The notes under the pieces: model-generated | Seen by the model: only the letters and a program-made list of their open reading frames with translations | Told to the model about the DNA's origin: nothing | Databases searched by the model: none | Shown here: in pieces, positions 1-20,368 of the stretch | How positions within the stretch are numbered: position 1 is the first letter of the stretch | How the letters are laid out: each line of letters opens with the position of its first letter | Position numbers and translations under genes: made by a program | Origin: Myxococcales bacterium | GTDB lineage: Bacteria > Myxococcota_A > Polyangia > Haliangiales > Haliangiaceae | Assembly: GCA_016794525.1 (NCBI GenBank) | Contig: JAEUJY010000041.1 | Coordinates: 1-41,323, forward strand | Reading direction: 5' to 3' | Length of the DNA: 41,323 nucleotides

Positions 1-1
1 G

Positions 2-1570
2 TGTACTCGGTTCGTGGACGCCAGCGCTCACGGCTCATCGCCCAAGCAGATCACGCCGCCACTCCCGCTGTCGATCCGCCCCGGGGCGCCCCGCACAACC
101 GATCGATATCACCGCCATTTCAAACCGATCGGTGTTCTAGATGGTGGTCCAAATCTAGGCTCGATCGCCCCCAACCATGACAAGATCTACCTGCCTGCCT
201 CGATTCACCCGTCGGCGACCTATCGAATCATCGAGGTAGATGCCGCCGGGAGTCGCGTGCGCACCGAGGGAAGGCCGGCCTTGCCCGCGTCCCCCTCCGC
301 CTCGCCTTGGCGCATCGCCCCGTACCAAGAAGTCAGTCTGCTGGATGTCGGCGGCATGGCCGCGGCTGGGGTGCCCGGTAGTCCCGGAGTCCTTCAACTC
401 GATCTCGATGCCGATCTGGCCCGGGTCTGGCCGAACGAGACTCCGCTCAACGTCGACGAGCCACGCGACACAATCTACCTCGAGCAGGACCAGGGGAGGC
501 ACAGCAAGCTGTACAAGATCGTCGGTGTCGACCACTTGCAGAAGCGGGTCACCGTCGATGCGCCGCCGGTACTCAGCGCGAGCGGGCGCTGGCGAATCAA
601 CCACCGGCCTTACCTGGTGATGATTGACCCCTTCGGCGCGCGGTTGCAGGGCGAAGGCGCCACCACTCAGCCGGCTAACCCAGATCGGGTCCTCCTGCCC
701 GGCGCCAATCTGGCACGGGTCAACGCATATTTCGATACCATCTACCTTGCCTCGGACACGGCGCGACCCGGTCGCACCTATCGCATCTTGGAAGTCAACG
801 ACACGGCCGATTGGGTCCGTATTGCGCACGACCCAGGCAACCCTGTTCCCTCACTCGGGGCGGGCAGTCGCTGGTACCTCCAGGCGGGGGTTGGAGGCGT
901 CCCGGCCCAGGTGAACTACAATCTCAGTTCTGGCCGCGGCTTCGATCACTACGACGGCATGGTGTTCTTGGTGCACAACGGCGTGATCCACGACGTGGCC
1001 GCATGGACCTCGTACACTTCTCGCAACTACTCGAACTACGACGAATTTCGGACCTCGCTGCGCGGAAACAAGGACTACGAGTATTCGTCGTACAAGTCTG
1101 GAAAGTCGTTCATCAACTTCGGCCTAAAGGTGGTCGACTTCGGCGCCGGAAAGCGCCCGGGATCCGCCGAGTTGTTCGACGGTGTTCGGGAGGCCCGCTG
1201 GTACTACGAGCCTACGACGCGTGACGACACCGAAGCGCCGTCGCGTGCCGTGGGTGCGAGCAACCTAGGCAAGACGACGATCAGGTTTCACTACGGCGAC
1301 ACGGGGAAGCCCACTAGCCCTTCAACGGCGTCCGGTTCGGCGGGCTGCATGGTGTCTCCGTCGTATGATGCGATGCGAGGCAGTCTCATCACGATACACA
1401 ACAACGAGCGCCGCGCCTACGACGGGACCTTCGATCAGGGCATCGATCAGTTGGTCGCAATGGGCCACCGTGCAGCCGTGCGGTTCCACCCGAACCTCGG
1501 ATTCGGTGCGTGGACGGACCGGTTGGTTGGGTGGGTCTGGGTCATCAGGCCAGGAGAGCGATCGCTATGA
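2..1570 (+). CDS. Triple-repeat protein with C-terminal L,D-transpeptidase-like motif (5' end may be cut)
   Basis: The frame is open to the left window edge; the first in-frame start is GTG at 14, so the true start may lie outside. Numbering from that GTG, three divergent repeats fill about residues 40-290. Each has a D-x-IYL strand (DKIYL, DTIYL, DTIYL), a YRI/YKI-x-x-V strand and a closing aromatic segment (PWRI, RWRI, RWYL). The C-terminal part (about 300-518) has an F-H-Y-G motif followed by S-A-G-C-M-V with Cys445. This is reminiscent of the H...S-x-G-C core of YkuD-type L,D-transpeptidases, but the usual Arg after Cys is absent, so catalysis is uncertain. Its stop overlaps the next ATG (ATGA), implying coupling. 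The region is less GC-rich than genes further right, suggesting acquisition. I cannot assign a function. Confidence 0.7.
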   Translation, partial: CTRFVDASAHGSSPKQITPPLPLSIRPGAPRTTDRYHRHFKPIGVLDGGPNLGSIAPNHDKIYLPASIHPSATYRIIEVDAAGSRVRTEGRPALPASPSASPWRIAPYQEVSLLDVGGMAAAGVPGSPGVLQLDLDADLARVWPNETPLNVDEPRDTIYLEQDQGRHSKLYKIVGVDHLQKRVTVDAPPVLSASGRWRINHRPYLVMIDPFGARLQGEGATTQPANPDRVLLPGANLARVNAYFDTIYLASDTARPGRTYRILEVNDTADWVRIAHDPGNPVPSLGAGSRWYLQAGVGGVPAQVNYNLSSGRGFDHYDGMVFLVHNGVIHDVAAWTSYTSRNYSNYDEFRTSLRGNKDYEYSSYKSGKSFINFGLKVVDFGAGKRPGSAELFDGVREARWYYEPTTRDDTEAPSRAVGASNLGKTTIRFHYGDTGKPTSPSTASGSAGCMVSPSYDAMRGSLITIHNNERRAYDGTFDQGIDQLVAMGHRAAVRFHPNLGFGAWTDRLVGWVWVIRPGERSL

Positions 1571-2814
1571 CGACTCGTCGGTGCACACTCTTCCTCTTGG
1601 TGGGGGCAATCCTCGCCGGGTGCCCCTCGGCACGATCGGTTGAGATCGCGGAGCCGCGGGCGGCGCCGCCGCCCTCATCCGTCCAGGAATGCGGCCCCTC
1701 CGAAGGTCCGGTACTGCCCGCCGGGCGGACGATCACTGCAGCCGTTGCACTTGACAACGGAGCTGTCCTACTCGCTGGGGTCGACGGCGGGGCGGGGCCT
1801 GGTCACACCCCAGAAGGGTGGAGCGCGATATTCGATCCGCGTTTGGGGAGCCTGCTCGAAACCCCCGTGCCGCCTGAGCTAGTCGTGACTCAGGCGGCAT
1901 GGACAGGCCGAGGCGTTATCGCCATCGGGACATCCTTGCTAGACGCGGTCGCGAACACCGACGCTGTGACGATGGCCGCGCGGTTCGATGTGAACACTCG
2001 CACGTGGATCGCGATGCCGAGGGTTCCTTCATGTGTGGGAGACGGCTCGTTTTCGAACCCGCCGACCGTTGAGATGATCGCGCTCGCAGATGGGGCGGCC
2101 CTTGTCGTTGGCGCCCTGTGCACGGCACAGGTCACGGCGGACGGCCGGTGGACTCAGTATGCGGCGCCCCCGCCGGCGCGCCTGTTCACATTGACGCGCC
2201 TCAACGGAGGAGACGTCTTGCGCATTGGCGGCGTGAGACTAAGCGATGGCGAACTCATGCGCGACGCGTTCCGCTTCAGGGCGGATCGCCAGCAGTGGGT
2301 CGAGGTCGCGCCCTCTCCATACTTTCGCTACAATCATACTTCCTCGCGCTTGGAGGATGGTCGAGTCTTGGTCGTCGGAGGATGTGAGGTCACTGAGGGG
2401 GCGTGTGGGTCTGAAGGCGTGCTGCGGGGGCCGCCTCCAGTGCTCTACGACCCTCGCGCCGACCGCTGGGAGGTTCTCGGCCAGGCGGAGGTGAACAATC
2501 GCGAACGTGCGAGTGCAACCGTGCTTGCCGACGGCCGAGTTGTGTTGTTGGGAGGCTTTGGTAGTGGGGAGGAATGGGGGGAGCTGCCTGGTGCGGCGTA
2601 CCAGAACGGCGGATGGGTGGAGCTCCCTGGGCTTGGTCGGGGCGGTGGGCAGCATCTCGCTGTCGCGGCGGGCGATCACCACGTCTTGGTTGCTGGCGGA
2701 ATGTGGAAAGAGAACGAACCTCAGCTCCTTTGGTACGGCGCCGCCCCGTCCTGTCCGTCGACGCCAGTCAAACTCGCGCCGCCCGCGCCACCTCTAGAAG
2801 AGTCGACGCCATGA
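1567..2814 (+). CDS. Kelch-repeat-like lipoprotein
   Basis: The 415-residue product starts at ATG 1567, inside an ATGA overlap with the upstream gene. Residues 1-19 form a lipoprotein signal (two Arg, hydrophobic stretch, lipobox L-A-G-C with Cys19), so the mature protein should be membrane-anchored. The body shows repeated beta-propeller blades of the Kelch/galactose-oxidase type: several copies of a hydrophobic-hydrophobic-GG motif (VLVVGGC, VVLLGGF, VLVAGGM) each preceded by a D-G-R or similar turn, with Trp-containing strands between. Kelch propellers bind proteins or glycans; no catalytic residues are evident. It ends in an ATGA overlap with the giant gene. An in-frame GTG upstream at 1510 is possible but would disrupt the signal peptide. 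Confidence 0.8.
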   Translation: MTTRRCTLFLLVGAILAGCPSARSVEIAEPRAAPPPSSVQECGPSEGPVLPAGRTITAAVALDNGAVLLAGVDGGAGPGHTPEGWSAIFDPRLGSLLETPVPPELVVTQAAWTGRGVIAIGTSLLDAVANTDAVTMAARFDVNTRTWIAMPRVPSCVGDGSFSNPPTVEMIALADGAALVVGALCTAQVTADGRWTQYAAPPPARLFTLTRLNGGDVLRIGGVRLSDGELMRDAFRFRADRQQWVEVAPSPYFRYNHTSSRLEDGRVLVVGGCEVTEGACGSEGVLRGPPPVLYDPRADRWEVLGQAEVNNRERASATVLADGRVVLLGGFGSGEEWGELPGAAYQNGGWVELPGLGRGGGQHLAVAAGDHHVLVAGGMWKENEPQLLWYGAAPSCPSTPVKLAPPAPPLEESTP

Positions 2815-5800
2815 CCCAGATCGCTACGCAGGGCACACTGCGCTCTCACCTGGCGGATGCACCCTGGCCGGTCGACTTCTTCGCCCCTGCCGACCTGCCG
2901 GGATTCCTCGATCGGATCTACGTGGTCGAGTCCCTGGTGCGATGGCGCGGCGACGAACACAACCTGCGCTTGCAGCTCGCGTTCGAGGGCGAGGTGGCGG
3001 TCCGCCTGCCCGGCCTCGACGGCGTGTCGCTGGTGTTCGGTGGCGATCCCCTTATTGAGGGTGTCACACTGATCGGAGTCCAGGTGAAGATGGGCAGACG
3101 CCCTGAGGTCGTTTTCGACCAGTTGTCGTTCGCACTGCGGTTCGATCGCGAGCTCCTGACCCCCGCCCCCGACGAGACCGGCCAGGTCGCCGAGCACGCC
3201 CAGATCTACGTCACCGGCTCGATCGCGATCGATGACAACTTCGATGTCCAGGTGCGGGGCTTCGACGCGATCGAGCTCACCCCGGTCATGCTCGGGTCGT
3301 CGGGAATCGTGCTGTCGGCGTCGGGGGTCAAGCTGGACCTGTCGCGGACCACCGCGCTGCCCGAGGTGCTGGCGGCTGGGTTCGGCGAGGACTTCCTGGG
3401 CGTGTTCGTGGGCGAGGCCAAGGTCCGGTTCCCGGACAACTTCCCCAGCTTGGCGCCCGAGGACCTGGTGCTGCGCGACGCCGCCATCGGCTCGGGCGGT
3501 GTCTCGGGGACCTTGGTGGCGTCGTACACCCCGATGTTCGACGACCAGACCCAGCGCTTCACCGGCCCGGGCGCCGGCGAGCTGGGCGGCGTGCCGTTCG
3601 GCCTGCGTGAAGCCGACATCGCCGTGCGTCGCAACGGCTTCGAGCGTGCCCGCCTGGCCGGCGACCTGCTCTTGCCGTTCTTCGACCTGCCGGTCGAGGT
3701 CGAGGTCGGGCTGACCCTGGACGGCGGGCTGACGGTGGCGCTCAGCCGTGACGAAGACCTGATCACGCTGCGCCGGGAGGGCGTGGTCGAGGTGGTTGTC
3801 GACAGCCTCGGGTTCGTGGTCGATGGCGACGGCCTGACCACCCGCCTGAGCGGCACCGTGCGGCCGCTGATCGGCGGGCTGGCATGGCCCGGCTTTGAGG
3901 TGCGCGAGCTGGAGATCGACTCCCGCGGCAACGTCCGGTGCGACGGCGGGTGGATCGATCTGCCTACCCAGTACGCGTTGGACTTCCACGGCTTCGCGAC
4001 CGAGCTGACCAAGCTGGGGTTTGGGCGCGACGACGACGGCGGCCGGTGGATCGCGGTCTCGGGCAGCCTGCAACTCGGCGCCGAGCTGCGGGCCGGGGCC
4101 TCGCTCGACGGCTTGCGGGTCACCTGGTACGGCGACGGCCGCCCGCCACGCCTGGGGCTCGATGGCATCGACGTCGAGCTGGACCTGCCCGAGGTGCTGC
4201 GGTTCCGCGGCCGGGTCGGCTACCGCGAGCTGCCGGGACCGGTCCACCGCTTCGACGGCGGCATCGCCCTCGAGTTGCTCGCCCTCGACCTGCGCCTCGA
4301 CGCCCAGCTGGTGATCGGCACCGGCCCGAATGGGTCGCCGTTTCTCGGCATCCACCTCGCCGGTGATCTGCCGGGTGGCATCCCTCTGTGGGCCACCGGG
4401 CTGTCGTTGTATGGCCTCTCGGGGCTGTTCGCGCTCAACCTCACGCCCGATCGTGCCGCCGACGAGCCGTGGTACGACGGCTGGTACAAGCGGGCGCCGC
4501 TGGGCGCGACCGAGCTGACCAAGTGGGCGTGGCAGGATGGCGCCCGCGGCTTCGGCGCCGGCCTCACGGTCGGCACCACCGTCGACAACGGCTTCACCCT
4601 GGCGGCCCGGACCTCGGTCATCCTGCTGTTCCCGGGCCCGATCGTGCTGATCGAGGGGCGGGCCAACCTGTTCCACGAGCGGGCCCGCCTGTCGGACGAG
4701 CCGGCGTTCACCGCGCTGGCGGTCCTCGACAAGCAGTCCGACACCTTCCTGGTGGGCCTCACCGCGCGCTACCAGCAGGGGGCCGATGGTCGGCTGATCG
4801 ACATCGGCGGTCGCGCCGAGGGCTTCTTCCGCCTCTCGAGCGGCGACGACTGGCACCTGTACCTGGGCGAGCGCACGCCGCCGGACCGCCGCATCAAGGC
4901 CAAGGCGCTGTCGCTGTTCGAGGCCGACGCCTACCTGATGATCGACCCCGACGGGCTGGCGCTGGGGGCGAGCGCGGGCTGGGACAAGCAGTGGAAGTTC
5001 GGGCCGCTACGGGTGTCGCTGTCGGCGTCGATCGCCGCGGACGCCGCGGTGAGCTGGCGCCCGCTGCACTTCCATGGCGAGGTCGGTGTTCACGGTGCCG
5101 TCGGTCTACGGCTACGGCCTGACGGTGTCGGTCGACGCCCGGCTCGCCGCCGACGTCTTCGATCCGTACCACCTGCTCGGTCAGTTCCACGTTGGCATCG
5201 GCCTGCCCTGGCCGCTGCCCGACTTCAGCGTCGACGTCTCGATGGAGTGGGGCCCGGAGCCGATCTTCCCGGCGCTGCCGGCGCCGGTGAAGGAGGTAAC
5301 GGTCGAGCACTTCAAGGTCACGTCGACCTGGCCGCTGCCGGTGGGTGGGCTGCTGGTGCCGCGCGTCGATCGCGGCGACGGACTCCTGCTGGAGCCGGTG
5401 CCGGGGCCGCCGCTGGCCGCGCCGCCACCGGCGACCGCGCCGGTAGTGCCGCTCGATGCCCGGCCCCGCATCACCTTCGCGCGGCCAGTCCACGACGACG
5501 CCCGCGCCGGGGTCAACGGCCGCGAGACGGTGCCGGCGCGCGAGCGCCTCGGCGATCCTCAGGCCGACGAGGGGCCGGTGCTGGTCCGCTACGGGCTGCG
5601 CGAGGTCGCGCTCGATGCGTGGCGCGGCGCCACCTGGATGCCGATCGCGCGGTCGGTGGGGCCCGGCCAGCCGCCCAACCCGCCGGGGCTACCGCGTCTG
5701 TGGGGCTCGTGGGCCCCCCTACCGGCGCTTCCCGACTTGGGCGGCACAGCTGTGGCCCAGGTGAAGTTGCTCCTGTGGTCGCGGACCCCGTTCGATCACA

Positions 5801-5996
5801 CCACTCACACTGGTGGCGCGTGGGACGAGTGGATCACCGACCACGCGACCGACCTGCCGTGCCTGCCGATCCCGGAGCCGGTCTGGACCTGCCACGGCCT
5901 GACCGGGCTCACCGAAGGCGACCTGGTGGAGCCACCGTGGACCTCACCCGACGTGCCGGGCTTCATTGTGACGTGGAATCCGCCGGTGATGCGTGA
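2811..5996 (+). CDS. Giant multidomain protein, 5' part (frame disrupted near 5.1 kb)
   Basis: Translation starts at ATG 2811 (ATGA overlap with the Kelch gene). No signal peptide is seen. Residues 1 to about 760 are a coherent, beta-rich, repeat-like sequence of strands with G-x-x turns, containing an aromatic segment around residues 530-600 (LYGLSGLFALNL, then PWYDGWYKR). From about 5080-5110 onward this frame becomes an Arg/Pro/Ala-rich out-of-register translation up to the stop at 5996. The natural continuation of the protein (YGYGLTVSVDA and onward) is in the +1 frame, which is open from 5074 to 11388. The true protein was therefore probably about 2,860 residues, interrupted by one indel. 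I do not recognise a named family with certainty; large beta-rich proteins of this style occur in myxobacteria and actinobacteria. Confidence 0.65.
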   Translation: MTQIATQGTLRSHLADAPWPVDFFAPADLPGFLDRIYVVESLVRWRGDEHNLRLQLAFEGEVAVRLPGLDGVSLVFGGDPLIEGVTLIGVQVKMGRRPEVVFDQLSFALRFDRELLTPAPDETGQVAEHAQIYVTGSIAIDDNFDVQVRGFDAIELTPVMLGSSGIVLSASGVKLDLSRTTALPEVLAAGFGEDFLGVFVGEAKVRFPDNFPSLAPEDLVLRDAAIGSGGVSGTLVASYTPMFDDQTQRFTGPGAGELGGVPFGLREADIAVRRNGFERARLAGDLLLPFFDLPVEVEVGLTLDGGLTVALSRDEDLITLRREGVVEVVVDSLGFVVDGDGLTTRLSGTVRPLIGGLAWPGFEVRELEIDSRGNVRCDGGWIDLPTQYALDFHGFATELTKLGFGRDDDGGRWIAVSGSLQLGAELRAGASLDGLRVTWYGDGRPPRLGLDGIDVELDLPEVLRFRGRVGYRELPGPVHRFDGGIALELLALDLRLDAQLVIGTGPNGSPFLGIHLAGDLPGGIPLWATGLSLYGLSGLFALNLTPDRAADEPWYDGWYKRAPLGATELTKWAWQDGARGFGAGLTVGTTVDNGFTLAARTSVILLFPGPIVLIEGRANLFHERARLSDEPAFTALAVLDKQSDTFLVGLTARYQQGADGRLIDIGGRAEGFFRLSSGDDWHLYLGERTPPDRRIKAKALSLFEADAYLMIDPDGLALGASAGWDKQWKFGPLRVSLSASIAADAAVSWRPLHFHGEVGVHGAVGLRLRPDGVGRRPARRRRLRSVPPARSVPRWHRPALAAARLQRRRLDGVGPGADLPGAAGAGEGGNGRALQGHVDLAAAGGWAAGAARRSRRRTPAGAGAGAAAGRAATGDRAGSAARCPAPHHLRAASPRRRPRRGQRPRDGAGARAPRRSSGRRGAGAGPLRAARGRARCVARRHLDADRAVGGARPAAQPAGATASVGLVGPPTGASRLGRHSCGPGEVAPVVADPVRSHHSHWWRVGRVDHRPRDRPAVPADPGAGLDLPRPDRAHRRRPGGATVDLTRRAGLHCDVESAGDA

Positions 5997-8900
5997 GGTG
6001 CATCCGGTGGGCGACGGACTACCCGGGGCATCCGCGCTGTGCGTGCCGCCTCGGCTGACGATCAACGCTCTCCCCGTCGATTGCGTGATGACGGTGTCGG
6101 TACCTGCTCCCAGCCGCGCCGTCCGGCTGGGCGTGGTCGATCCGACCGGCGTGACCGTCATGGCACGACACGCTGATGGGACGGTCACCGGCCCCTACCC
6201 GGGCGGCACCTCAGCTGACCCGTGGGTGACGGTGCCGGCGGCGGACGTCGTCGAGCTCACCGTCACGCCCGGCAAGCTCGCCTGTGTGTACCAGCTGTGC
6301 CTCGAGCACGGGCTGTCCGACGAGGAGCTCGCCGATCGGCAGGATCTGCAGACCCACGTCCAGGGCGAGGTGGTCCGCTGGTCGCAAGACGGGCACGTGC
6401 TTGAGCCCGACACCGCGTATCGCCTGCGGATCGTCAGCACCGTGAACGCCACCGGCGAGGGCGAGCTGGCCGGCCAGACGCGCGACCACGCGACCGAGCA
6501 GCTCGCGTACTTCCGGACCGGCGGTCCGCCCGGCCTGGGGACGCTGTCGACCCCCGAGGGCTACCCGGGCGCCGAGCCGTTCCGCAGCGGGCTCGACGAC
6601 CTGACCCGCTACGTGCGGCAGACCGTGCCGCCCACGGTGCCGGCGCCGGGCCAGCCGCTGGTGCAGGTGCGCCCGGTGTTCCGGGCCTACGATCTCGGGG
6701 TCGAGTTCAACGAGGACTACGTCGAGCTGATGTACCGCCTGGGCGGGCGCGATCTGGGGATGTACCTGTTCGACGGCAACAGCGCGCCGCTGCGCGATCC
6801 GGGCGGACGGCTGATGCAGCCGCGCTACCGGTGGGCGCGGTCGAGCCACCCCGCGCTGAGCGAGGCCGAGCAGTGGTGGCTGCAGGTGGTCGGCGGCAGC
6901 CCGTGCCTGGCCATCGACCCGACCGTCATCCCTTACCCGGCGGCGATGGTCAGCGCCGGGGCGGTGCTGCCGCCCGACGCCGCCATCGAGGCCCGGCTGG
7001 TGCCGCTGGTGTTCCGCGACGGGTTCGCGGAGCTGCCGGTGGGCACCAGCGCGATCGGCGACGGGGCGACCCTGGGGCGGTGGCGCGTCGACGACGTGGC
7101 GGCGGTGGGCGGCCCCGGGCGGTGGGTGATCGAGGACGGCGGCAGCGGCACCCGGGCCCTGGCCCAGCTCGCGGCGATCGGCGCGGTGCCGGCCGATCCC
7201 GGCGACGCCCGCCGGCCCGGCACCCTGCTGCGGTGCGAGGTCACCGCCACCGACTACCGGGTCACAGGCCAGGTCCGCTCGTCCAGCGGAGGCGCGGTCG
7301 GGATCGCGGTCCGGGTGACCGCCAGCGAGGCCGGCTACCTCTTCGTGATGGACCGCAATGCCGGGAATCGCCGGCTGGTGCGGATGCAGCCCGGCGAGTG
7401 GGCGGTGCTGGCCGAGGACCAGCGCCGCTACCCGATCGGCCGCGACCAGGCGATGTCGCTCGAGGTGGTGGGGAGCTCGCTGCGGGCCTACCTCGACGGG
7501 GTGCTGGTGTTCCACGTCGTGGACGCCGCCTACCCCGCCGGTGGGGTCGCCCTCCACACCCAGAGCTGCGCGGACGCCCGCTGGCGGGAGCTCCGCGTCG
7601 ACGACCTAGGCGCCGGCGCGCCGGTCGTGTACAGGTTCGGGTTCACCACCTCCCGGTTCGCCAGCTTCTACCACCTTGGTCACGGCGGCGAGCAGCGGCG
7701 GTCGACCGTGGCGCCCCCCGCCGGCCTGACGGCGATGATCGGCGCGGCGGTGAGCCCGGCGACCGCGCCCACCGACGACGAGCATCGCGCCTACGACGCG
7801 GCCGCCGCCCTGGTGCTGGGCCCGGCCATGCACCGGCGGCCCGCCGCGCTCGAGCTCACCCGGCTGGCCGACGCCGCCGGGCTGGTCGGGTTCCTGCTCG
7901 TCAGCCCCGAGCCGATCGCTTGGCCTCGCGTGACCCTGGCGCTCCACGCGGGGCCGAGCCAACCGGCGCGCGCGTCCGGCCCGGGGCCGGCCCGGCTGGC
8001 CGAGGCGACCGTCGGGCAGGTCGACTCGACCGCCGAGTCGGTCACGGTGCTCGTCGAGGATCCCGTCGATCCCAGCGCGATCGCGGTCGAGTACCTGGCG
8101 CTGCCCGGGGCGGTCGACCTGACCGCGGGCGCGGTGGTGTTCGACGAGCGCTTCCCGGGGCCGGCGGGCGCGCTGCACCTCGAGCGGTTCGGCCCCGGCG
8201 CCAGCGAGCGGTTCACGATCCTCGATCAGGGCGATCAGGAGGGGCCGTCGCGGTGGCGCTCTGAGGATGGGCGGATGAAGCAGCTGAGCCCGATCTACGG
8301 CGGGGACCTCGGTGGCGGCGAGGCGCTGCGCCCCGGGACCATGGCGCTGCTCGGTGATGCGAGCTGGCGCGACCTCACCATCGACACCGTGGTGCGGGCC
8401 GGCGCCCCCGGCGCCATCGGCCTGGTGTTCCGTCACGGCCCCACCGGGGATCACTACCGGTTCGCCATGGATCAGGCGCTGACCCAGCGCCGCCTGGTGC
8501 GGGTGACCGCCGGGGCGGCGACGGTGCTATGGGAGCAAGCCCAGGGCTTCGAGCTGGACCGCGACTACCGGCTGCGGGTGCAGGTGCTCGGCGACACCCT
8601 GGTCGGCTGGCTGGACGACGGCCTGCTGTTCCACGTGGTCGACCCGGGCCCGCGCCTGGGCGGCGGCCAGCTCGGCTGGTACTGCTGGCACAACCCGCTC
8701 GCCGAGTTCGCGGCCCTGGAGGTGTCGACGCTCGAGGTCGAGCCGATCCGCTGGACCGGCGACCTGGGCGAGCCCGCGTCGTGGGAGGTGCGCGACGACG
8801 TCGGCGCGATCGGCGGTCCCTCGCAGTGGGTGGCCGACGATGGCCTGCGGCAGCTCACGGCGATCGGCGGCGCCGACGGCGCCGGCTTCGCGCTGGGGAC

Positions 8901-11388
8901 GGTGGCGGTCGCCGAGGGGGCGGGCTGGGACGACGTCGGGTTCGACGTGGTGGCGATGGCCGACGGGGTCGGCACCCTGGGCGTGCAGTTCCACGATCGG
9001 GGCCCCGCCGATCACTACCGCTTCACCCTCGATGCCGCCGCCCAGACCGCGCGGTTGACCCGGCGCCGGGACGGCGTGGCGGTCGAGCTGTGGTCGGGCC
9101 CGGGTGGCTACCAGCCCGGCGTCGAGGTCCACCTGACCATCACCACGGTGGGCGATCAGCTCGCGGTCGTGGTCGACGGCGTCGAGCGGGTGCGCCTGGC
9201 GGACGGGACGCTGCGGCTGGGCGGCCTCGGGCTGTTCACCAGCGGCGACGTCCGGGCCAGGTTCCGCCGCGCGGTGGTGGCCGAGCGTCGGCGGGTGGTG
9301 GGCGGATGGCGGGTGATCGACGAGGGCCACGACCACGGCCCGTCGCGCTGGCGGGCCGCCGGCGAGCTGACCGAGGACCGCGGCGTCGACGGCGATGGCC
9401 CGGTGACGGCGGCTCGCCCGGGGACCTACGCCCTCGCCCTGGCCGCGGTGCCGGACGCGATCCGGGTCGAGGCCACGCTGCGGGCCGAGGCGGACGGCGC
9501 GGTGGGGGTGGTGGTGCGCTGGGTCGACACCGACAACTACTACCGGGTCTCGCTCGATCGCACCGCCGGGGTTCACCGCCTGGTCCGCAAGGCGGCGGGG
9601 GTGACGACGGTGCTGTGGGAGGCGCCCGGCGGTTACACCCCGGGCCACCCGCTCCGGGTCGTGATCGACGTGGTGGGAGCTCGGCTGCGCGGCACCCTCG
9701 ACGGCGCGCCGTGGTTCGACCTGGTCGACTCGACCCACCCGGCCGGGGCCGTCGGCTTCTACGCCTGGCGCAACCCCGGCGCGACCGCGCTGCGGATGGT
9801 GGCTCGCCGACCGCCGCTCGAGGCCCACGAGCTGTACCGCGACCGGTTCGCCGCCGCCGACCTGTCGGGGTGGCAGGTCATCGACGAGGGCACTGGGGCG
9901 GCCCCGTCGCAGTGGCGGCTCCAGGGCGGCGAGCTGCATCAGCAGAGCCTGATCTTCGGGCCCGTGTTGCAGCCGATGAGCCCGGTCAAGTCCGGGACCA
10001 TGGCGGTGGTGGGCGATCCGACCTGGACCGATCAGATCCTCTCGGTGCGCCTGGCCTCCGGGCACGGCGGCGCGATCGGCGTGGTGTTCCGGTACCATGC
10101 GGCGACCGACCACTACCGGTTCTCGATGGATCGCAACGCGCGCTACCGCCGGCTGGTCAAGCGGGCCGGCGGCGCCCACGTCGTGCTGTGGGAGGACCGC
10201 GTCCAGTACGAGCTCGACCGCCCCTACGAGCTGACCGTGGTCGCGATCGGTGACCGCCTGCGCGGCTACCTCGATGGCGTGCCGCTGTTCGACGTCGCCG
10301 ACGCCGGGCTGGCCGCGGGCCGGGTCGGCCTGTACACCTGGCACAACAGCGACGGCCGCTTCTCGCAGCTGCGGGTGTACCGGCCGGACGCCGGGTTTGC
10401 CGCGTGGGACCTGAGCGATGGCTTCGCGAGCCTCAGCCGACTGCTCTGGCAGCCGGTCGACGACGCGCTGTACGCGACTCCCTCGCGCTGGGCCGCCGAC
10501 GGCTACCTGCGGCAGCCGGTGCCGGTGCCGGGCACCAGCCTGGTCGGCGGCGACCGCGGGTGGGCCGACATCCGCGTGACCGCCACGGTGATCGCTGCGA
10601 CTGCGGGCGCGGTGGGAGTCGTTGCGCGCTACCGCGGGCCTGGCGATCACTACGCCCTCACGGTCACGAGCGACCCGATCGGTCTGGGGCGCGCCCAGCT
10701 TGTGGCGACGGCGGGCGGCGTCGCCACCGAGCTCTGGGAGGGCGCGGTGGCTGTCAAGCCTGGGGGCCAGCACCTGATCACGCTCGACGTCGTGGGTGAC
10801 CGCCTCACTGCATGGGTCGACGGAAACCGCCTGGCCTCGGTCGTCGACCAGACCCACGCCGCGGGCCGGGTAGGGGTGCGCACCGAGCAGGCCGCAGACG
10901 CGCGCGTGACCTCGATCCGGGTCGCGCAGGCGCGCTGGGCCCACTACGGGGATCTAGCGGCGGAGCCTGGCGAGGCGCCGCTTGCGCCAGGCATGCGAGT
11001 CCGGGTCTCGGCGCTGGAAGTGCGACCACCGACGGGCGAGGCCAACCTGCGGGTGGCCGCTACTGCGGAGACCGGTGGCCCCGGCCGCGCCGTGCTCGGG
11101 CCGGGGATTGATCCGGTGTGGCTGCGCCTGCGGCAGCGGCGAACCGGTCAGCCCGACATGGTGCACGACACGTTGGGAGTGAGACGGGCCACCGATGACG
11201 TCCAGAGCGGCGCGCGCGTGTTGCGGCGCAGGGATGGCACCGGGGTCCTTGTGTTCCCGGACACCGCCAATCTCGACTCCGGCTATCGCCTGTCGTTGAC
11301 CTTCGCTCGCGCTGGCATCGCAGGGCTGCCAGATCTGGCGGAGGCCGGGTTGAACGACCCCGAGCGGGTGACCATCGAGCTGCCGTGA
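5074..11388 (+). CDS. Giant multidomain protein, 3' part with six tandem LamG/ConA-like domains
   Basis: This 2,104-codon frame continues the protein begun at 2811. The ATG at 5074 has no Shine-Dalgarno sequence and lies inside the upstream coding region, so it is probably not a natural start. About residues 1-640 are beta-rich and include a Pro-rich linker and a segment ending YFRTGGPPGLG. Then come six related domains of about 175-200 residues: roughly 650-846, 1023-1223, 1225-1407, 1407-1581, 1582-1773 and 1775-1955. Each has a strand-turn core D-H-Y-R-F-x-x-D followed by R-R-L-V-x-x-x-x-G and V-L-W-E, then V-x-G-D-x-L-x-x-x-x-D-G and a W-H-N-like end. This pattern fits concanavalin/LamG-like sandwich folds, often carbohydrate-binding. 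The last about 150 residues are distinct. The stop is inside a GTGA overlap with the next frame. Confidence 0.75.
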   Translation: MARSVFTVPSVYGYGLTVSVDARLAADVFDPYHLLGQFHVGIGLPWPLPDFSVDVSMEWGPEPIFPALPAPVKEVTVEHFKVTSTWPLPVGGLLVPRVDRGDGLLLEPVPGPPLAAPPPATAPVVPLDARPRITFARPVHDDARAGVNGRETVPARERLGDPQADEGPVLVRYGLREVALDAWRGATWMPIARSVGPGQPPNPPGLPRLWGSWAPLPALPDLGGTAVAQVKLLLWSRTPFDHTTHTGGAWDEWITDHATDLPCLPIPEPVWTCHGLTGLTEGDLVEPPWTSPDVPGFIVTWNPPVMREVHPVGDGLPGASALCVPPRLTINALPVDCVMTVSVPAPSRAVRLGVVDPTGVTVMARHADGTVTGPYPGGTSADPWVTVPAADVVELTVTPGKLACVYQLCLEHGLSDEELADRQDLQTHVQGEVVRWSQDGHVLEPDTAYRLRIVSTVNATGEGELAGQTRDHATEQLAYFRTGGPPGLGTLSTPEGYPGAEPFRSGLDDLTRYVRQTVPPTVPAPGQPLVQVRPVFRAYDLGVEFNEDYVELMYRLGGRDLGMYLFDGNSAPLRDPGGRLMQPRYRWARSSHPALSEAEQWWLQVVGGSPCLAIDPTVIPYPAAMVSAGAVLPPDAAIEARLVPLVFRDGFAELPVGTSAIGDGATLGRWRVDDVAAVGGPGRWVIEDGGSGTRALAQLAAIGAVPADPGDARRPGTLLRCEVTATDYRVTGQVRSSSGGAVGIAVRVTASEAGYLFVMDRNAGNRRLVRMQPGEWAVLAEDQRRYPIGRDQAMSLEVVGSSLRAYLDGVLVFHVVDAAYPAGGVALHTQSCADARWRELRVDDLGAGAPVVYRFGFTTSRFASFYHLGHGGEQRRSTVAPPAGLTAMIGAAVSPATAPTDDEHRAYDAAAALVLGPAMHRRPAALELTRLADAAGLVGFLLVSPEPIAWPRVTLALHAGPSQPARASGPGPARLAEATVGQVDSTAESVTVLVEDPVDPSAIAVEYLALPGAVDLTAGAVVFDERFPGPAGALHLERFGPGASERFTILDQGDQEGPSRWRSEDGRMKQLSPIYGGDLGGGEALRPGTMALLGDASWRDLTIDTVVRAGAPGAIGLVFRHGPTGDHYRFAMDQALTQRRLVRVTAGAATVLWEQAQGFELDRDYRLRVQVLGDTLVGWLDDGLLFHVVDPGPRLGGGQLGWYCWHNPLAEFAALEVSTLEVEPIRWTGDLGEPASWEVRDDVGAIGGPSQWVADDGLRQLTAIGGADGAGFALGTVAVAEGAGWDDVGFDVVAMADGVGTLGVQFHDRGPADHYRFTLDAAAQTARLTRRRDGVAVELWSGPGGYQPGVEVHLTITTVGDQLAVVVDGVERVRLADGTLRLGGLGLFTSGDVRARFRRAVVAERRRVVGGWRVIDEGHDHGPSRWRAAGELTEDRGVDGDGPVTAARPGTYALALAAVPDAIRVEATLRAEADGAVGVVVRWVDTDNYYRVSLDRTAGVHRLVRKAAGVTTVLWEAPGGYTPGHPLRVVIDVVGARLRGTLDGAPWFDLVDSTHPAGAVGFYAWRNPGATALRMVARRPPLEAHELYRDRFAAADLSGWQVIDEGTGAAPSQWRLQGGELHQQSLIFGPVLQPMSPVKSGTMAVVGDPTWTDQILSVRLASGHGGAIGVVFRYHAATDHYRFSMDRNARYRRLVKRAGGAHVVLWEDRVQYELDRPYELTVVAIGDRLRGYLDGVPLFDVADAGLAAGRVGLYTWHNSDGRFSQLRVYRPDAGFAAWDLSDGFASLSRLLWQPVDDALYATPSRWAADGYLRQPVPVPGTSLVGGDRGWADIRVTATVIAATAGAVGVVARYRGPGDHYALTVTSDPIGLGRAQLVATAGGVATELWEGAVAVKPGGQHLITLDVVGDRLTAWVDGNRLASVVDQTHAAGRVGVRTEQAADARVTSIRVAQARWAHYGDLAAEPGEAPLAPGMRVRVSALEVRPPTGEANLRVAATAETGGPGRAVLGPGIDPVWLRLRQRRTGQPDMVHDTLGVRRATDDVQSGARVLRRRDGTGVLVFPDTANLDSGYRLSLTFARAGIAGLPDLAEAGLNDPERVTIELP

Positions 11389-11553
11389 GCACCGTAGCTT
11401 TGATGACACCGTGCGATGCGAACGAGCAGCGGCTGGAGCGAGCGCAGAAGCTCATGGCTGTGCTTGCCAAGAACGGCGCGAGTGGACAGGCCCGCGACTT
11501 CGCGAACTTCGTCGATGTGTACCGGGCCGCCATCGGCAAGTCGCCCGCCGCCC

Positions 11554-11571
11554 GTGGCAAAACCTTGCCAC
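11554..11571 (+). repeat. Perfect 7-bp hairpin
   Basis: GTGGCAA and TTGCCAC flank a 4-base AACC loop. It lies where the truncated reading frame stops looking like protein. It has no T-run after it, so it is not a clear terminator. It may be a protein-binding inverted repeat of an attachment region. Confidence 0.4.
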
Positions 11572-11618
11572 GCCACCCCAGATCCCTGCCGATCACCCCG
11601 GACCACCCCGGACAAGCA

Positions 11619-11698
11619 GGGCCTCGAACCCAGCGGAATCGCTGCAAGGCTGCGCGGTCGTTGTTGATTCCGCGCGGTCCCGGCAGGGTTCGAGTCCC
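11619..11698. repeat. Nested inverted repeats around an inverted T-loop-like sequence
   Basis: An outer pair, GGGCCTCGAACCC (11619-11631) and GGGTTCGAGTCCC (11686-11698), is complementary at 12 of 13 positions. Inside it, GCGGAATC (11633-11640) and GATTCCGC (11666-11673) are perfectly complementary. The whole segment could fold into one long hairpin on either strand. The right outer arm is the T-loop of the tRNA-like fragment, so the left arm is a second, inverted T-loop copy. This arrangement suggests a recombination or attachment site. The gene-free stretch from about 11555 to 11815 holds this structure, the tRNA-like end and a terminator, and nothing else I can identify. Confidence 0.55.
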
Positions 11699-11711
11699 CC
11701 CTTTCGCACGA
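11686..11711 (+). other. tRNA 3'-end-like fragment (candidate attachment site)
   Basis: The sequence has GGG-TTCGAGT-CCC, a canonical T-stem core and T-loop, followed by an acceptor-like strand CTTTCGC, a discriminator A and CGA in place of CCA. No matching 5' acceptor strand (GCGAAAG), D-arm or anticodon arm lies upstream, so it is not an intact tRNA. The outer two T-stem pairs also do not form. A 5' GCGAAAG acceptor is seen in some tRNA-Leu genes; that identity is a guess. A tRNA 3' end directly followed by an intrinsic terminator, at the right edge of a compositionally different operon, is what integration by a tyrosine integrase leaves at one end of an island. Confidence 0.5.
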
Positions 11712-11712
11712 G

Positions 11713-11742
11713 AGGCCGCCGCAAGGTGGCCTTTCTCCTTTT
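11713..11742 (+). terminator. Intrinsic terminator after the tRNA-like end
   Basis: An 8-bp stem, AGGCCGCC with GGTGGCCT (one G-T pair), closes on a GCAA tetraloop and is followed by the T-rich tract TTCTCCTTTT. Such a terminator directly after a tRNA 3' end is typical of real tRNA transcription units. Confidence 0.8.
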
Positions 11743-11815: not shown

Positions 11816-12325
11816 ATGCCGGGTTCGCCTGTGGCGGGCGCGCCAGCCACGCCCCCGTCGTTCGTGGCCCTGATCGTCAGGCCGACGCCGCTCGGATTCG
11901 AGATCGCGCCGCGCGGCCCGGGCGCCGACCTCTGGATCGAGGCGATCGTCTGGCTCGTCGGGGCGCTCGGGATGGCGTCGGCCCTGGTGCTCGGCGGCCC
12001 CGCGCTGCGCGTCGTCGGGGCGATCGGGCTGGTCGCGATCGGGCTCCGCGCGCTGGTCCGGGTGGCGCGCGCGCTGCTGGGGCGGACCACGCGGACGGTG
12101 CGGCTGCTGCTGCGCGTGCCGCGACCCGCGCTGGCGGGCATGCTCGAGAGCGTCCCGCTGGATCAGGTGACGCAGCTCGCGGTGGGCCGGCGCGCCAACC
12201 TGACGGGCTTGATCGCGACCACGCCGACCGGGAAGGAGCACTGGCTCGTCGATCTGGATCCCGCGAACACGGCCGAGTACCAGCAGCTCGCGGCGTGGCT
12301 CGCGACGTTCGTCCCTCGCCGGTGA
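11816..12325 (+). CDS. Small membrane protein of unknown function
   Basis: The 169-residue product is read from ATG 11816. After a short Pro/Ala-rich N-terminus and about 30 soluble residues (FVALIVRPTPLGFEIAPRG), one long hydrophobic region at about residues 42-78 could form two closely spaced membrane helices. A basic segment (RALLGRTTRTVRLLLRVPR) and a soluble C-terminal domain with alternating strands follow. There is no signal peptide or recognised motif. The topology resembles small bacterial membrane proteins with a PH-like cytoplasmic tail, but I cannot claim homology. It starts the host-type high-GC sequence right of the terminator and converges on the histidine kinase gene, with 16 bases between their stops. 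Confidence 0.7.
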   Translation: MPGSPVAGAPATPPSFVALIVRPTPLGFEIAPRGPGADLWIEAIVWLVGALGMASALVLGGPALRVVGAIGLVAIGLRALVRVARALLGRTTRTVRLLLRVPRPALAGMLESVPLDQVTQLAVGRRANLTGLIATTPTGKEHWLVDLDPANTAEYQQLAAWLATFVPRR

Positions 12326-12341: not shown

Positions 12342-13631
12342 CTACGCCGTGGTCGGCAGGGCGGGGAGGCGGACGATGAAGCGGGTGCCAGTGCCGGGAC
12401 CGGGCTCGCACTGGAGCTGGCCGCCGAGGCCGTGGATGATCTCGCGTGAGATCGCGAGCCCGAGCCCGGTGCCCTTGCCGGGGGCCTTGGTGGTGAAGAA
12501 CGCGTCGAAGATGAACGGCAGGTCGGCGGGGGCGATGCCGCGGCCGGTGTCGGTCACCTCGACGTACACCGCGGCGTCGGCGCTGTGGATGCGCAGGTGG
12601 ATGGTGTTGTGGTCGACGTCGCCCTCGTCGATCGCGTGGGCGGCGTTGACGATCAGGTTCAGGAACACCTGGGCCAGCTCGCCGTCGGACGCGGCGACCT
12701 GGGGCGCCGCGGCGTAGTCGCGGACGACCGTCGCCCGGTACTTGATCTCGTGCGCCGCGAGCATGAGCGCCGCCTCGAGCGGCGCGCGCACGTCGGTCGC
12801 GGCCGCGCGATCGCGCTCGATGCGCGCGAACCTGCCGAGGCCCCGCGCGACCTCGCGGATCCGGAGCGCGCTGGCGAGCGCCTCGCGGCCGCGATCGGCG
12901 AGCTCGCCAAACGTCGACGGCGTGTCCGCGGCCGCGTCGGCCGGGCGCGGCGCGTCGGGCGCGGCGCGCTGCGCCAGCTCCTCGACGAGGCCTTCGAGCG
13001 TCGCCAGCACGAAGCACAGCGGGTTGTTGATCTCGTGCGCGATGCCGGCGGCGAGCATGCCCAGGTTGGCGAGCCGATCGGCGTGGGCGAGGCTGCGGTG
13101 CAGCCGCTGGCGATCCTGCTGCGCCTTGACGAAGTCGGTGATGTCGCGGGACAGCGACAGCACGCTGGTGATGACGCCGGCCGCGTCGCGCACCGGCGCC
13201 AGCGTCGTCAGGTAGGTGCGACGGCCGCCGGGCGCGGGCAGCTCGTCCTCGAACTGCGTCCGCTCGCCGGTCGCGAAGACGTGGCGGAGCCGCGCCTCCC
13301 AGACCGTCGCGATCGCTGGCGCGATCCCGGTCTCGGCCAGCGTTCGCCCGACGTACGCGGCGGCGGCCGCGGGGCCGACGGCGGCCGCGGCCTGGTTGAC
13401 GTAGCGGTGGCGCAGATCTCGATCGAAGCTGGCGAGCAGATCGGGCAAGTTGTCGGCCAGCGCCTGGTGATCGGCGAGCGCGCTCACCACCTCGGCGTGG
13501 GCCGCGCGGAGCTCGAGGTTCTGCGCCTCGAGCTCGACCTGGTGGACCTCGAGCTCGTGGGTCAGCCGAGCGAGCGCCAGGCCCGCCGCCGCTCCCTGTT
13601 CCGCCGGTGGCGCCTTGCCTCGTTCCATCAT
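12342..13631 (-). CDS. Soluble PAS-domain sensor histidine kinase
   Basis: The 429-residue protein has an N-terminal coiled-coil-like region (about 20-55, Leu/Glu-rich), a PAS domain (about 55-180, ending in the PAC-like VRDAAGVITSVLSLSRDIT), and a HisKA region with the H-box G-I-A-H-E-I-N-N-P-L (phospho-accepting His199). The C-terminal HATPase domain has an N-box (N-L-I-V-N-A-A-H-A-I), G1 (D-T-G-R-G-I), an F-box (F-D-A-F-F-T-T-K) and G2 (G-T-G-L-G-L-A-I). There is no membrane helix, so it senses a cytoplasmic signal. All kinase motifs are intact. No response regulator is adjacent, so it is an orphan kinase with unknown partner. The H-box and ATPase style match the NtrB/PAS family common in myxobacteria. 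Confidence 0.95.
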   Translation of the reverse strand: MMERGKAPPAEQGAAAGLALARLTHELEVHQVELEAQNLELRAAHAEVVSALADHQALADNLPDLLASFDRDLRHRYVNQAAAAVGPAAAAAYVGRTLAETGIAPAIATVWEARLRHVFATGERTQFEDELPAPGGRRTYLTTLAPVRDAAGVITSVLSLSRDITDFVKAQQDRQRLHRSLAHADRLANLGMLAAGIAHEINNPLCFVLATLEGLVEELAQRAAPDAPRPADAAADTPSTFGELADRGREALASALRIREVARGLGRFARIERDRAAATDVRAPLEAALMLAAHEIKYRATVVRDYAAAPQVAASDGELAQVFLNLIVNAAHAIDEGDVDHNTIHLRIHSADAAVYVEVTDTGRGIAPADLPFIFDAFFTTKAPGKGTGLGLAISREIIHGLGGQLQCEPGPGTGTRFIVRLPALPTTA

Positions 13632-17837: not shown

Positions 17838-20294
17838 CTAGCGGATCGCGATCGTCCCGGCGCCGACGATCCGCACCTGCAGCCGCCCCGCCTCGGCCCG
17901 CCAGCACCCCGGCGTGCAGGTCTGCAGCGCGGCGTCGCTGACGGCGAACCCCAGCGCGCTGCCGTCGCGCGTGACCGCGGTCGGCGCGGCGACGTGGGCG
18001 GCCAGCGCGGCCCGGGTGTCGAGGTCGAAGGTGGCGGCGACGTACTGGCTGCCGGGCGTGAACGTGAGCTGGTAGGCGTCGGCGGTGGCCTGGCCGGCGG
18101 CGTAGGCGTCGTCGTGCAGGCGGGTCCAGGTCGCGCCGCCGTCGGGCGTGATCAGCAGGCGCAGCTCGCCGCCGAACGCGGGATCGGCGTACGACGTGAC
18201 GCCGGGCGCGGTGGCCGGCTCGAGCGTGTCGGCGGCGCGCGCGAACATCGGCACGAAGCGATCGGCGGCCCGCCACAGCGGCAGGCGATCGAGCGGCGCG
18301 GCGGCGGTGGTCGCGGTGGCGCCGTCGCCGGTCGTCGCGGCCCCGGTCCACCAGTCGATCCACCGGCCGGGCGGCAGCACCGCGACCCGCGTCGTGGCGC
18401 CGGCCTCGATCACCGGCGCGACCAGCAGGTCGTCGCCGAGCAAGAACATCGCGTCGTCGCAGCCGGCGGTCGGGTAGACGAAGCCGCACGGCCGGGTGAC
18501 CGGCGTGCCGTCGGCGCCGGCGGCCTGGGCCAGCGTCCACAGGAGCGGGTTGAGGTCGAGGTGCAGCCGCGCGTAGGTCCGGTAGATGTCGAGCGCCGGC
18601 GCCGGGTACAGCGCGGTGTCCCACGGGTTGTGCGACGGGCCGCCGCCGCCGAGCTGCATGATCGTGCCGAGCGCCGCGTACTGCGCCCACCGGCTCAGCA
18701 CCTCGGTGGTCGGGGTGCCCTCGCGGTAGCCGCCGATGTCCGAGCCGAAGAACGGGTAGCCCGACACCGACAGCGACAGCCCGCCGGCGATCGCCGCGGG
18801 CAGGCCGCCGACGTTGCGCTCGCCGCGGCCGTTGTCGACGCCGTGGCGCGAGAAGTCGCTGTCGAGGTCGCCGGGCCAGATGCAGGTGTTGCGATCCTGA
18901 TCGCCCCACGCGCCGGCGCGGGTGATGAGGAAGCCGTCGCCCGGCGGCAGCGCTCCGAGGTACGCGTCGTGGTAGTAGCGGTTGAAGATGCCGTGCAGGT
19001 CCTGGTTGTCGCCGGCGGCCAGCCGCATCGTCAGCTGGATGCCGTACAGCGCCGGCACGACGTCCTCGCCGTAGTCGAGCTTGAAGCCGCTGACGCCGCG
19101 GGCCACCGCGCGGGCGATGCGCTCGCGCCAGAACGTCACCGCCGCCGGGTTGGTGAAGTCGATCAGCCCGACCGGGCCCTGGTTCCACGGAAACGGCAGC
19201 GTCCGGCCGCCGTCGTCCATGACGAACAGGTGGGCGGCGTCGGCGGCGCGGTAGTCGTCGGCGGTGGTGCCCGACGACAGGAGGTACGGCGTCGACCACA
19301 CCACGACCCGGTAGCCGAGCCCGCGCAGCTCGGCGAGCAGCGCGTCGATCCCGACGAAGCGCTGCTCGTCGAACGTGAACGTGTTGTAGCCGGTCTGCCA
19401 CGGGTTATCGATCCACATCGTCGAGCCGGGGATGCCGAGCGCGCGCATCTGCTGGGCGTCGTCGCGGACCTCGGCGCTGGAGCGGTGCTCGTTGCGCCAC
19501 TGCTGCGGCGCGAACGCCCAGCGCGGCGGCACCGCCGGCCGCGCGGTGGCGGCGACGTAGTGGCGCACCAGATCGAGCGGGGCGTCGGCGACGAACAGCT
19601 CGAACGCCAGCGGGCCGCGGGTCGGCAGGTTGAAGGTGGCGGTGGCGGCGTCGGGCGTGGTCGCGCCCAGGTCGAACGCGCCGGCGCGGCGATCGCGGAC
19701 GAACAGGCCCAGGCCGCGCCGCGGCCACAGCGCCAGCGGCACCGGCACGTGGGCCTCGTTGAGCCCCGACTCGAAGGCGTCGTCGGGGCGGAACTGCGCC
19801 TCGCGCACCTGGCCGGTGGCGTTGGCGCCGCCGAAGCTCTCGCCGAAGCCGTACAGCGGCTCGCCGGGCGCCATCGGCACCGCCAGCCGGGTCAGCACCG
19901 CGCCGCCGACCGCGCTGGCATCGATCGCCAGCGTCGCGTCGCGGTCGTGATCGCCCGGCGTGAGCCGCAGCCGGGCGCCGCCCTCGAGCACCAGCCACCC
20001 GTCGGCGTCGAGCGCGGTGGCGCGGGCCGGGCGGCTCCAGGTGAGCGGGTCGTCGCCGGTGACCCGCGGGTCGTAGTAGTGGCCGGGATCGGGCTCGGCG
20101 ACGGTGGCGATCTCGACGAAGGCGGCGCGCACCATCGGGCCGCCGGCCGGCGGGGTGATGGTCAGGGTCAGCGGATCGGTGGTGATCGTGACGGCGCCGA
20201 CGGTGACGCTGGCGGGGGGCGGGGTTGGCGCGCCGTCGTCGCCGCACCCGAGGGCGATCGACGCGAGCGCCGCGGACACGAGCAGGCCACGCAT
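17838..20294 (-). CDS. Glycoside hydrolase family 31 lipoprotein
   Basis: The 818-residue protein starts at ATG 20294 with a lipoprotein signal (lipobox A-L-G-C, Cys17). It has an N-terminal beta-sandwich, then a (beta/alpha)8 barrel with GH31 signatures: the W-I-D-N-P-W region, G-F-K-L-D-Y-G-E with nucleophile Asp407, and F-F-G-S-D-I-G-G-Y. A proximal sandwich domain follows (LPPGRWIDWWTG). GH31 enzymes are retaining alpha-glucosidases, alpha-xylosidases or related enzymes; K-L-D-Y-G-E resembles the alpha-xylosidase/sulfoquinovosidase side, but substrate cannot be fixed. The about 100 C-terminal residues end in a Cys pair (QTCTPGC). It should act at the cell surface on alpha-glycosides. It is divergent from the KirBac gene across 74 bases. 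Confidence 0.93.
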   Translation of the reverse strand: MRGLLVSAALASIALGCGDDGAPTPPPASVTVGAVTITTDPLTLTITPPAGGPMVRAAFVEIATVAEPDPGHYYDPRVTGDDPLTWSRPARATALDADGWLVLEGGARLRLTPGDHDRDATLAIDASAVGGAVLTRLAVPMAPGEPLYGFGESFGGANATGQVREAQFRPDDAFESGLNEAHVPVPLALWPRRGLGLFVRDRRAGAFDLGATTPDAATATFNLPTRGPLAFELFVADAPLDLVRHYVAATARPAVPPRWAFAPQQWRNEHRSSAEVRDDAQQMRALGIPGSTMWIDNPWQTGYNTFTFDEQRFVGIDALLAELRGLGYRVVVWSTPYLLSSGTTADDYRAADAAHLFVMDDGGRTLPFPWNQGPVGLIDFTNPAAVTFWRERIARAVARGVSGFKLDYGEDVVPALYGIQLTMRLAAGDNQDLHGIFNRYYHDAYLGALPPGDGFLITRAGAWGDQDRNTCIWPGDLDSDFSRHGVDNGRGERNVGGLPAAIAGGLSLSVSGYPFFGSDIGGYREGTPTTEVLSRWAQYAALGTIMQLGGGGPSHNPWDTALYPAPALDIYRTYARLHLDLNPLLWTLAQAAGADGTPVTRPCGFVYPTAGCDDAMFLLGDDLLVAPVIEAGATTRVAVLPPGRWIDWWTGAATTGDGATATTAAAPLDRLPLWRAADRFVPMFARAADTLEPATAPGVTSYADPAFGGELRLLITPDGGATWTRLHDDAYAAGQATADAYQLTFTPGSQYVAATFDLDTRAALAAHVAAPTAVTRDGSALGFAVSDAALQTCTPGCWRAEAGRLQVRIVGAGTIAIR

Positions 20295-20368
20295 CGCGCG
20301 AGCATCGCAGAGGTCGGCGGCCGCGGGGCAAAACTTGCGCACCGACGGGCGCCGCCGAAGATCGGCCG

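Follow-up and report, generated by a model that had tools for sequence, protein, structure and literature searches.

The stretch analysed here, referred to as the window, makes up the whole of contig C135, which is 41,323 bp long and belongs to a 9.8 Mb draft genome in 177 contigs; no tRNA is called anywhere within it. At 11,686–11,712 it carries a T-arm and an acceptor strand (GGGTTCGAGTCCCCCCTTTCGCACGAG), followed by a terminator-like hairpin at 11,713–11,732 and then by TTCTCCTTTT. The features, given with the roles that we argue for below, are these:

1–11,553, plus strand: right part of the probable island, coupled reading frames, among them one of 518 aa; C135 begins inside the island
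14–11,388: operon of large proteins in overlapping frames (a Kelch protein, one with a weak DUF6603 match, and a protein of 2104 aa that has a 3-keto-disaccharide hydrolase domain)
11,554–11,571, no strand assigned: arm-site palindrome GTGGCAA-AACC-TTGCCAC, GTGGCAAAACCTTGCCAC (P' arm), conserved; TTGCCAC is also paired at +73/+84 at attL
11,578–11,617, plus strand: four 10-bp phased repeats (starts 11,578, 11,588, 11,598 and 11,608), consensus (C)CGGAYCA; candidate excisionase (RDF) sites by analogy with RdfS (PMC11963761)
11,623–11,631, minus strand: inverted T-arm copy CTCGAACCC, outer arm of the dyad, 54 bases before GGGTTCGAG at 11,686–11,694
11,633–11,640, no strand assigned: 5' arm of a perfect 8-bp inverted repeat, GCGGAATC, whose partner is GATTCCGC at 11,666–11,673
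11,643–11,649, plus strand: TGCAAGG, near-invariant block between the stems, 44 bp before the T-loop
11,652–11,675, no strand assigned: inner hairpin GCGCGG ... CCGCGC, overlapping the 3' arm GATTCCGC of the 8-bp repeat
11,686–11,710, plus strand: attR core, a T-arm with its acceptor strand, identified by match to the intact tRNA as the 3' end of tRNA-Leu(CAG) separated from the remainder of that gene
11,713–11,740, plus strand: displaced terminator of tRNA-Leu, duplicated behind the intact gene on C56 (57-bp repeat, 93% overall)
11,741–41,323, no strand assigned: chromosome right of the insertion, with a histidine kinase (12,342–13,631) and a GH31-like gene (17,838–20,342)

All the elements listed by an earlier sequence-only reading of this DNA were recovered in place: the tRNA-like 3' end without the rest of a tRNA, the terminator after it, the inverted T-loop copy and the inner perfect 8-bp repeat.

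When the region was used to search its own genome, it emerged that window 11,686–11,740 is a second copy of the last 25 nt and the terminator of tRNA-Leu(CAG), matching the 3' end and terminator of the intact gene at 93% over 57 bp; that gene lies at C56:2378–2460. Further matches on C22 and C128 were rejected as chance similarity of GC-rich sequence. Directly behind the intact tRNA, on the minus strand, is a tyrosine integrase of 419 aa (C56:2464–3723, PF00589) in which the catalytic R, HxxR, H and Y are all present (AGLRVGE, HILRHTF, MGHK, LYIHV) and whose stop codon falls 4 bp past the tRNA 3' end, inside the duplicated terminator. It is adjoined by an excisionase-family protein (C56:3681–4109; HTH_17; TIGR01764 above cut-off); farther along C56 from the integrase, on the left end of the island, there is an AbiEii toxin-family gene together with a WYL/WCX regulator-like frame (C56:5459–8180, L006), and left of the tRNA a cyclase gene. 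The sequence-only reading had pointed to an intact tRNA with the same 3' end, which is this tRNA-Leu(CAG), and to an integrase gene left of the window, which indeed exists but stands on another contig, past an assembly break.

The cyclase beside tRNA-Leu(CAG) is kept in 10 relatives at 75–93% identity, and in the same-genus relative G006 the left-flank and right-flank genes surround an uninterrupted tRNA-Leu without the island. There, 5.5 kb past the tRNA on the same contig and in matching orientation, lies a homologue of the GH31-like gene at 17,838–20,342, matching it at 73% over 823 aa, so that the left and right flanks are neighbours where the island is absent; G006 is without the genes that stand between the boundary and the GH31-like gene in the window. 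The island's ends lie on separate contigs of the draft assembly, C56 and C135, which together carry at least about 27 kb of it, and its apparent continuity between them rests on the synteny with G006, which supports it.

From these observations we conclude that 11,554–11,742 is almost certainly the attR, or distal end, of an integrative genomic island inserted in tRNA-Leu(CAG). The island boundary anticipated from the sequence is thus backed by an intact tRNA, a duplicated terminator, an integrase and an empty site in a relative. Since 3' ends are alike among Leu tRNA genes, one could suppose that the 25 matching nucleotides arose by chance or are what is left of a decayed tRNA, with the block no more than an ordinary variable region; this is hardly credible, given that the terminator is duplicated too, that the integrase stands behind the intact tRNA and that the empty site of the relative contradicts it through synteny.

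Nor is the operon found at the same site in all relatives: for the 2104-aa gene the other 29 genomes of the family offer no true homologue, with one weak 57-aa match only. The compositional difference claimed for the operon holds for 1–2600, at 64% G+C, but not for 2600–11,550, where 73% compares with 75% past the boundary; with 1–2600 set against 73–75% for the rest of the window, the island resembles a mosaic. In a separate observation, another island seems to sit in the tRNA-Leu(CAG) of genome G002, having cut the gene farther upstream: C101 (L041/L147) carries a longer tRNA-Leu 3' fragment and, besides it, a gene homologous to another one of the right flank, while the intact tRNA lies on C16 (L063/L146), where the sequence behind it resembles another integrase.

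The sequence immediately left of the core is more than a local peculiarity. Window 11,552–11,703 is similar to sequences in same-genus genomes, each of which ends in a tRNA 3' end, not always that of Leu. A model of the arm of about 150 bp (window 11,554–11,699), built from sequence only, identified about 50 copies in 21 of the 30 genomes of the family, which we take to be Kofleriaceae, and matched in only 2 of about 137 other genomes of the phylum. The tRNA whose 3' end closes a copy varies (Leu, Asn, SeC and others), and the Asn targets rule out class II tRNAs as sole targets; the P' arm is shown by this to be a conserved unit that serves many tRNA targets. From palindrome to T-loop, most copies run in a register almost without gaps: a TTGCCAC palindrome or direct pair at about -133, the four 10-bp repeats, AACC at about -60, TGCARGG at -44 and the T-loop GGTTCGA at 0. 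An exact-pattern match in a Burkholderiales bin (L140) was set aside, having no T-arm in register.

Homologues of the integrase in other genomes likewise sit, for the most part, immediately 3' to a tRNA (Leu, Asn, Gly, Asp, Val, Ala), and several of them carry TTGCCAC twice, +73 and +84 from the T-loop, on the attL side. At the motif level, conserved arm-type sites therefore occur on both sides of the core, as the +73/+84 pair and as the -133 palindrome. At two places in G038 (L203 on C420 and L204 on C692, the complete attP-like junctions) the P' arm, core, second arm pair and integrase end occur in one stretch, as expected of tandem islands. The natural reading of this layout would be a lambda-type attP with integrase arm sites on both sides, a T-arm core and candidate excisionase sites. 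No close relative of the integrase was found in phage and viral-contig collections, and no copy of the attachment element in plasmid and phage collections, which argues that a known phage is not the source.

Two further occurrences of the arm may be mentioned in passing. On C60 of the same genome (19855–20001 and 35351–35448, both minus strand; L007, L074), a second, decayed copy of the arm runs into the 3' end of a tRNA-SeC, and the intact tRNA-SeC stands 15.4 kb upstream of it. G+C is 71% between the two as against 76% outside, and C60 yielded no PF00589 integrase; we read this as an old SeC-tRNA island. In G004 (C497, L072) tRNA-SeC at 11,855–11,954 and the element at 10,156–10,290 are only about 1.6 kb apart, and the interval, without a recognisable integrase, may be a remnant or an integrase-less mini-element.

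Within the arm lies the nested dyad. Nested repeats alone are mildly unusual in this GC-rich window, as 30 of 2037 sampled 189-bp stretches (about 1.5%) also hold an inverted repeat of at least 9 bp with one of at least 8 bp nested inside, and it is therefore by its conservation that the hairpin has to be assessed. As a fold, the 86 nt do stand out significantly (z = -3.4 as DNA, -4.1 as RNA). Between clusters of copies the stems around TGCARGG differ in sequence and stay complementary, for example CGAGACGA/TCGTCTCG in G037, ACGAAGAC/GTCTTCGT in G028 and CTGGAAA/TTTCCAG in G116. As column-by-column covariation on the gap-free alignment is dominated by relatedness, we used an alignment-free arm-swap test instead, in which each 5' arm of 20 representatives of less than 72% identity was paired with its own and with the others' 3' arms. 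Own arms of the outer stem reached -21.3 kcal/mol, as against -14.9 kcal/mol for swapped arms (p = 5e-5), and the inner hairpin likewise covaried (p = 5.5e-4), whereas control region pairs gave no covariation (p = 0.74 and 0.09). By a strand-symmetric score the own partner was the best match for 14 of 19 arms, and G116 and G150, outliers within the phylum, retain the stems at a spacing shifted by 1–3 bases. It is thus complementarity, to judge from these comparisons, and not sequence that is conserved, in a hairpin spanning -67 to +5 relative to the T-loop and reaching into the crossover region, an ancient component of the attachment site. It was the remark of the sequence-only reading on a foldable structure beyond the needs of a standard attachment site that led to this finding. 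As far as we found, a covarying hairpin in the attP of a tRNA island is undescribed, no description having emerged from a literature search with most subscription journals outside its reach.

What the hairpin does can be read in three ways. It may act as a folded strand at the attachment site, a tentative reading to which we give somewhat less than an even chance. The imperfect pairs give a weak hint of folding in the bottom strand: as read on the top strand, A-C pairs exceed G-T pairs by 24 to 11 (p = 0.04; 11 clusters to 2). A second reading, which we hold to be quite possible without calling it probable, takes the nested dyad as a pair of inverted sites at which proteins bind duplex DNA: one more integrase site of the core type, with sites for a partner protein, the two copies co-changing under the same protein. 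The AACCC/GGGTT of the dyad does copy the core, and an almost gap-free, helix-phased register from palindrome to T-loop in most copies is what a protein–DNA complex would lead one to expect. Yet the stems run past the T-loop copy into sequence that has no counterpart in the tRNA gene and is cluster-specific, and there they are still complementary and covary, so that plain duplicated core sites are not the whole explanation; the inner hairpin covaries too, and G116 and G150 keep the stems despite their shifted spacing. In the third reading, which we consider distinctly unlikely, the end of the island encodes a structured RNA, a 3' UTR or small RNA, and the dyad is its trace in the DNA. Covarying stems around an unpaired, conserved TGCARGG look RNA-like, but the dyad always stands at a fixed distance from the crossover and pairs into it, the mismatch bias favours, if weakly, the bottom strand, and no Rfam family matched the hairpin at its gathering score, with chance-level matches only. 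We lean, by a narrow margin, towards the folded strand over paired protein sites or RNA.

In the mechanism that we propose for the site, the integrase would bind the TTGCCAC arm sites on both arms together with the T-arm core, and strand exchange would take place within the T-arm/3'-end identity block; the excisionase would coat the 10-bp repeats, directing excision. The least certain step is that of the hairpin itself, which might be a folded single strand or an extruded cruciform at the attachment site, with the inverted T-loop copy paired to the core. That this extends to the whole family of tRNA-targeting, arm-site tyrosine integrases, the island-side attP arm folding single-stranded (perhaps as the bottom strand) with the T-loop copy pairing with the crossover core, is a conjecture that we regard as rather unlikely.

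The analysis provides a map, drawn from sequence alone, of the full attachment-site layout for an integrase family that has reached many tRNA genes across the Kofleriaceae. The map comprises the arm pairs (+73/+84 and about -133), the four 10-bp repeats and, from -67 to +5, the hairpin with its covariation. The analysis also closes the question of the boundary, which is ordinary, and the covarying hairpin is the new part. The arm module is a ready tool for locating island ends in a poorly studied group, and from the covariation one can derive precise mutants to test. Should the hairpin indeed function as a folded strand, it would link two classes of site-specific recombination usually treated apart, and a folded-arm attP, if true, would be a hybrid of lambda-type and integron/CTX-type attachment sites.

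Integron attC and the attP of CTX phage are folded single-strand attachment sites of tyrosine recombinases. For attC there is a bottom-strand model (PMC9345347), and the parallels to the site described here are inverted core copies about 50–60 nt apart, structure kept over sequence and a weak bottom-strand pairing bias; the resemblance to folded single-strand sites appears to be in one respect only, namely that structure is kept while sequence changes. Unlike attC and CTX attP, the present site has apparent integrase arm sites and a double-stranded 57-bp direct repeat. An integron attC is ruled out by boxes and integrase class: the core GGTTCGAG and the inverted copy CTCGAACC depart from the R'' (RYYYAAC) and R' (GTTRRRY) consensus, and the integrase scores 43 bits against the IntI model TIGR02249, far below its cut-off of 265.

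Taken alone, the boundary is that of an ordinary tRNA island by the Islander definition (PMC4383910). That definition also calls for both ends on one replicon, 2–200 kb apart; here they stand on C56 and C135, and synteny with G006 speaks for a single site. As in Islander tDNA islands, an intact tRNA is regenerated by the island, the displaced 3' fragment has the same orientation, the integrase adjoins the tRNA and the subsite is the T-loop/3' end; the boundary itself is no different, and it is the hairpin module that falls outside the definition. Within the Myxococcota, the Myxococcus phage Mx8 likewise has a tRNA-targeting tyrosine integrase with the gene end at attP (PMC4383910), although the Mx8 integrase gene spans attP, whereas the present one stops 4 bp beyond the 3' end of the tRNA. 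The attP of ICEMlSymR7A is about 250 bp long with several integrase arm sites, and in the parts of that report used here (PMC11963761) no covarying hairpin is described and RdfS has no evident consensus motif; the present repeats, by contrast, share CCGGAYCA. According to the same report, RdfS binds 40 bp of attP as a tetramer, with 10 bp per subunit, which corresponds to the four 10-bp repeats of the P' arm and makes the attP/IntS/RdfS system the closest measured parallel.
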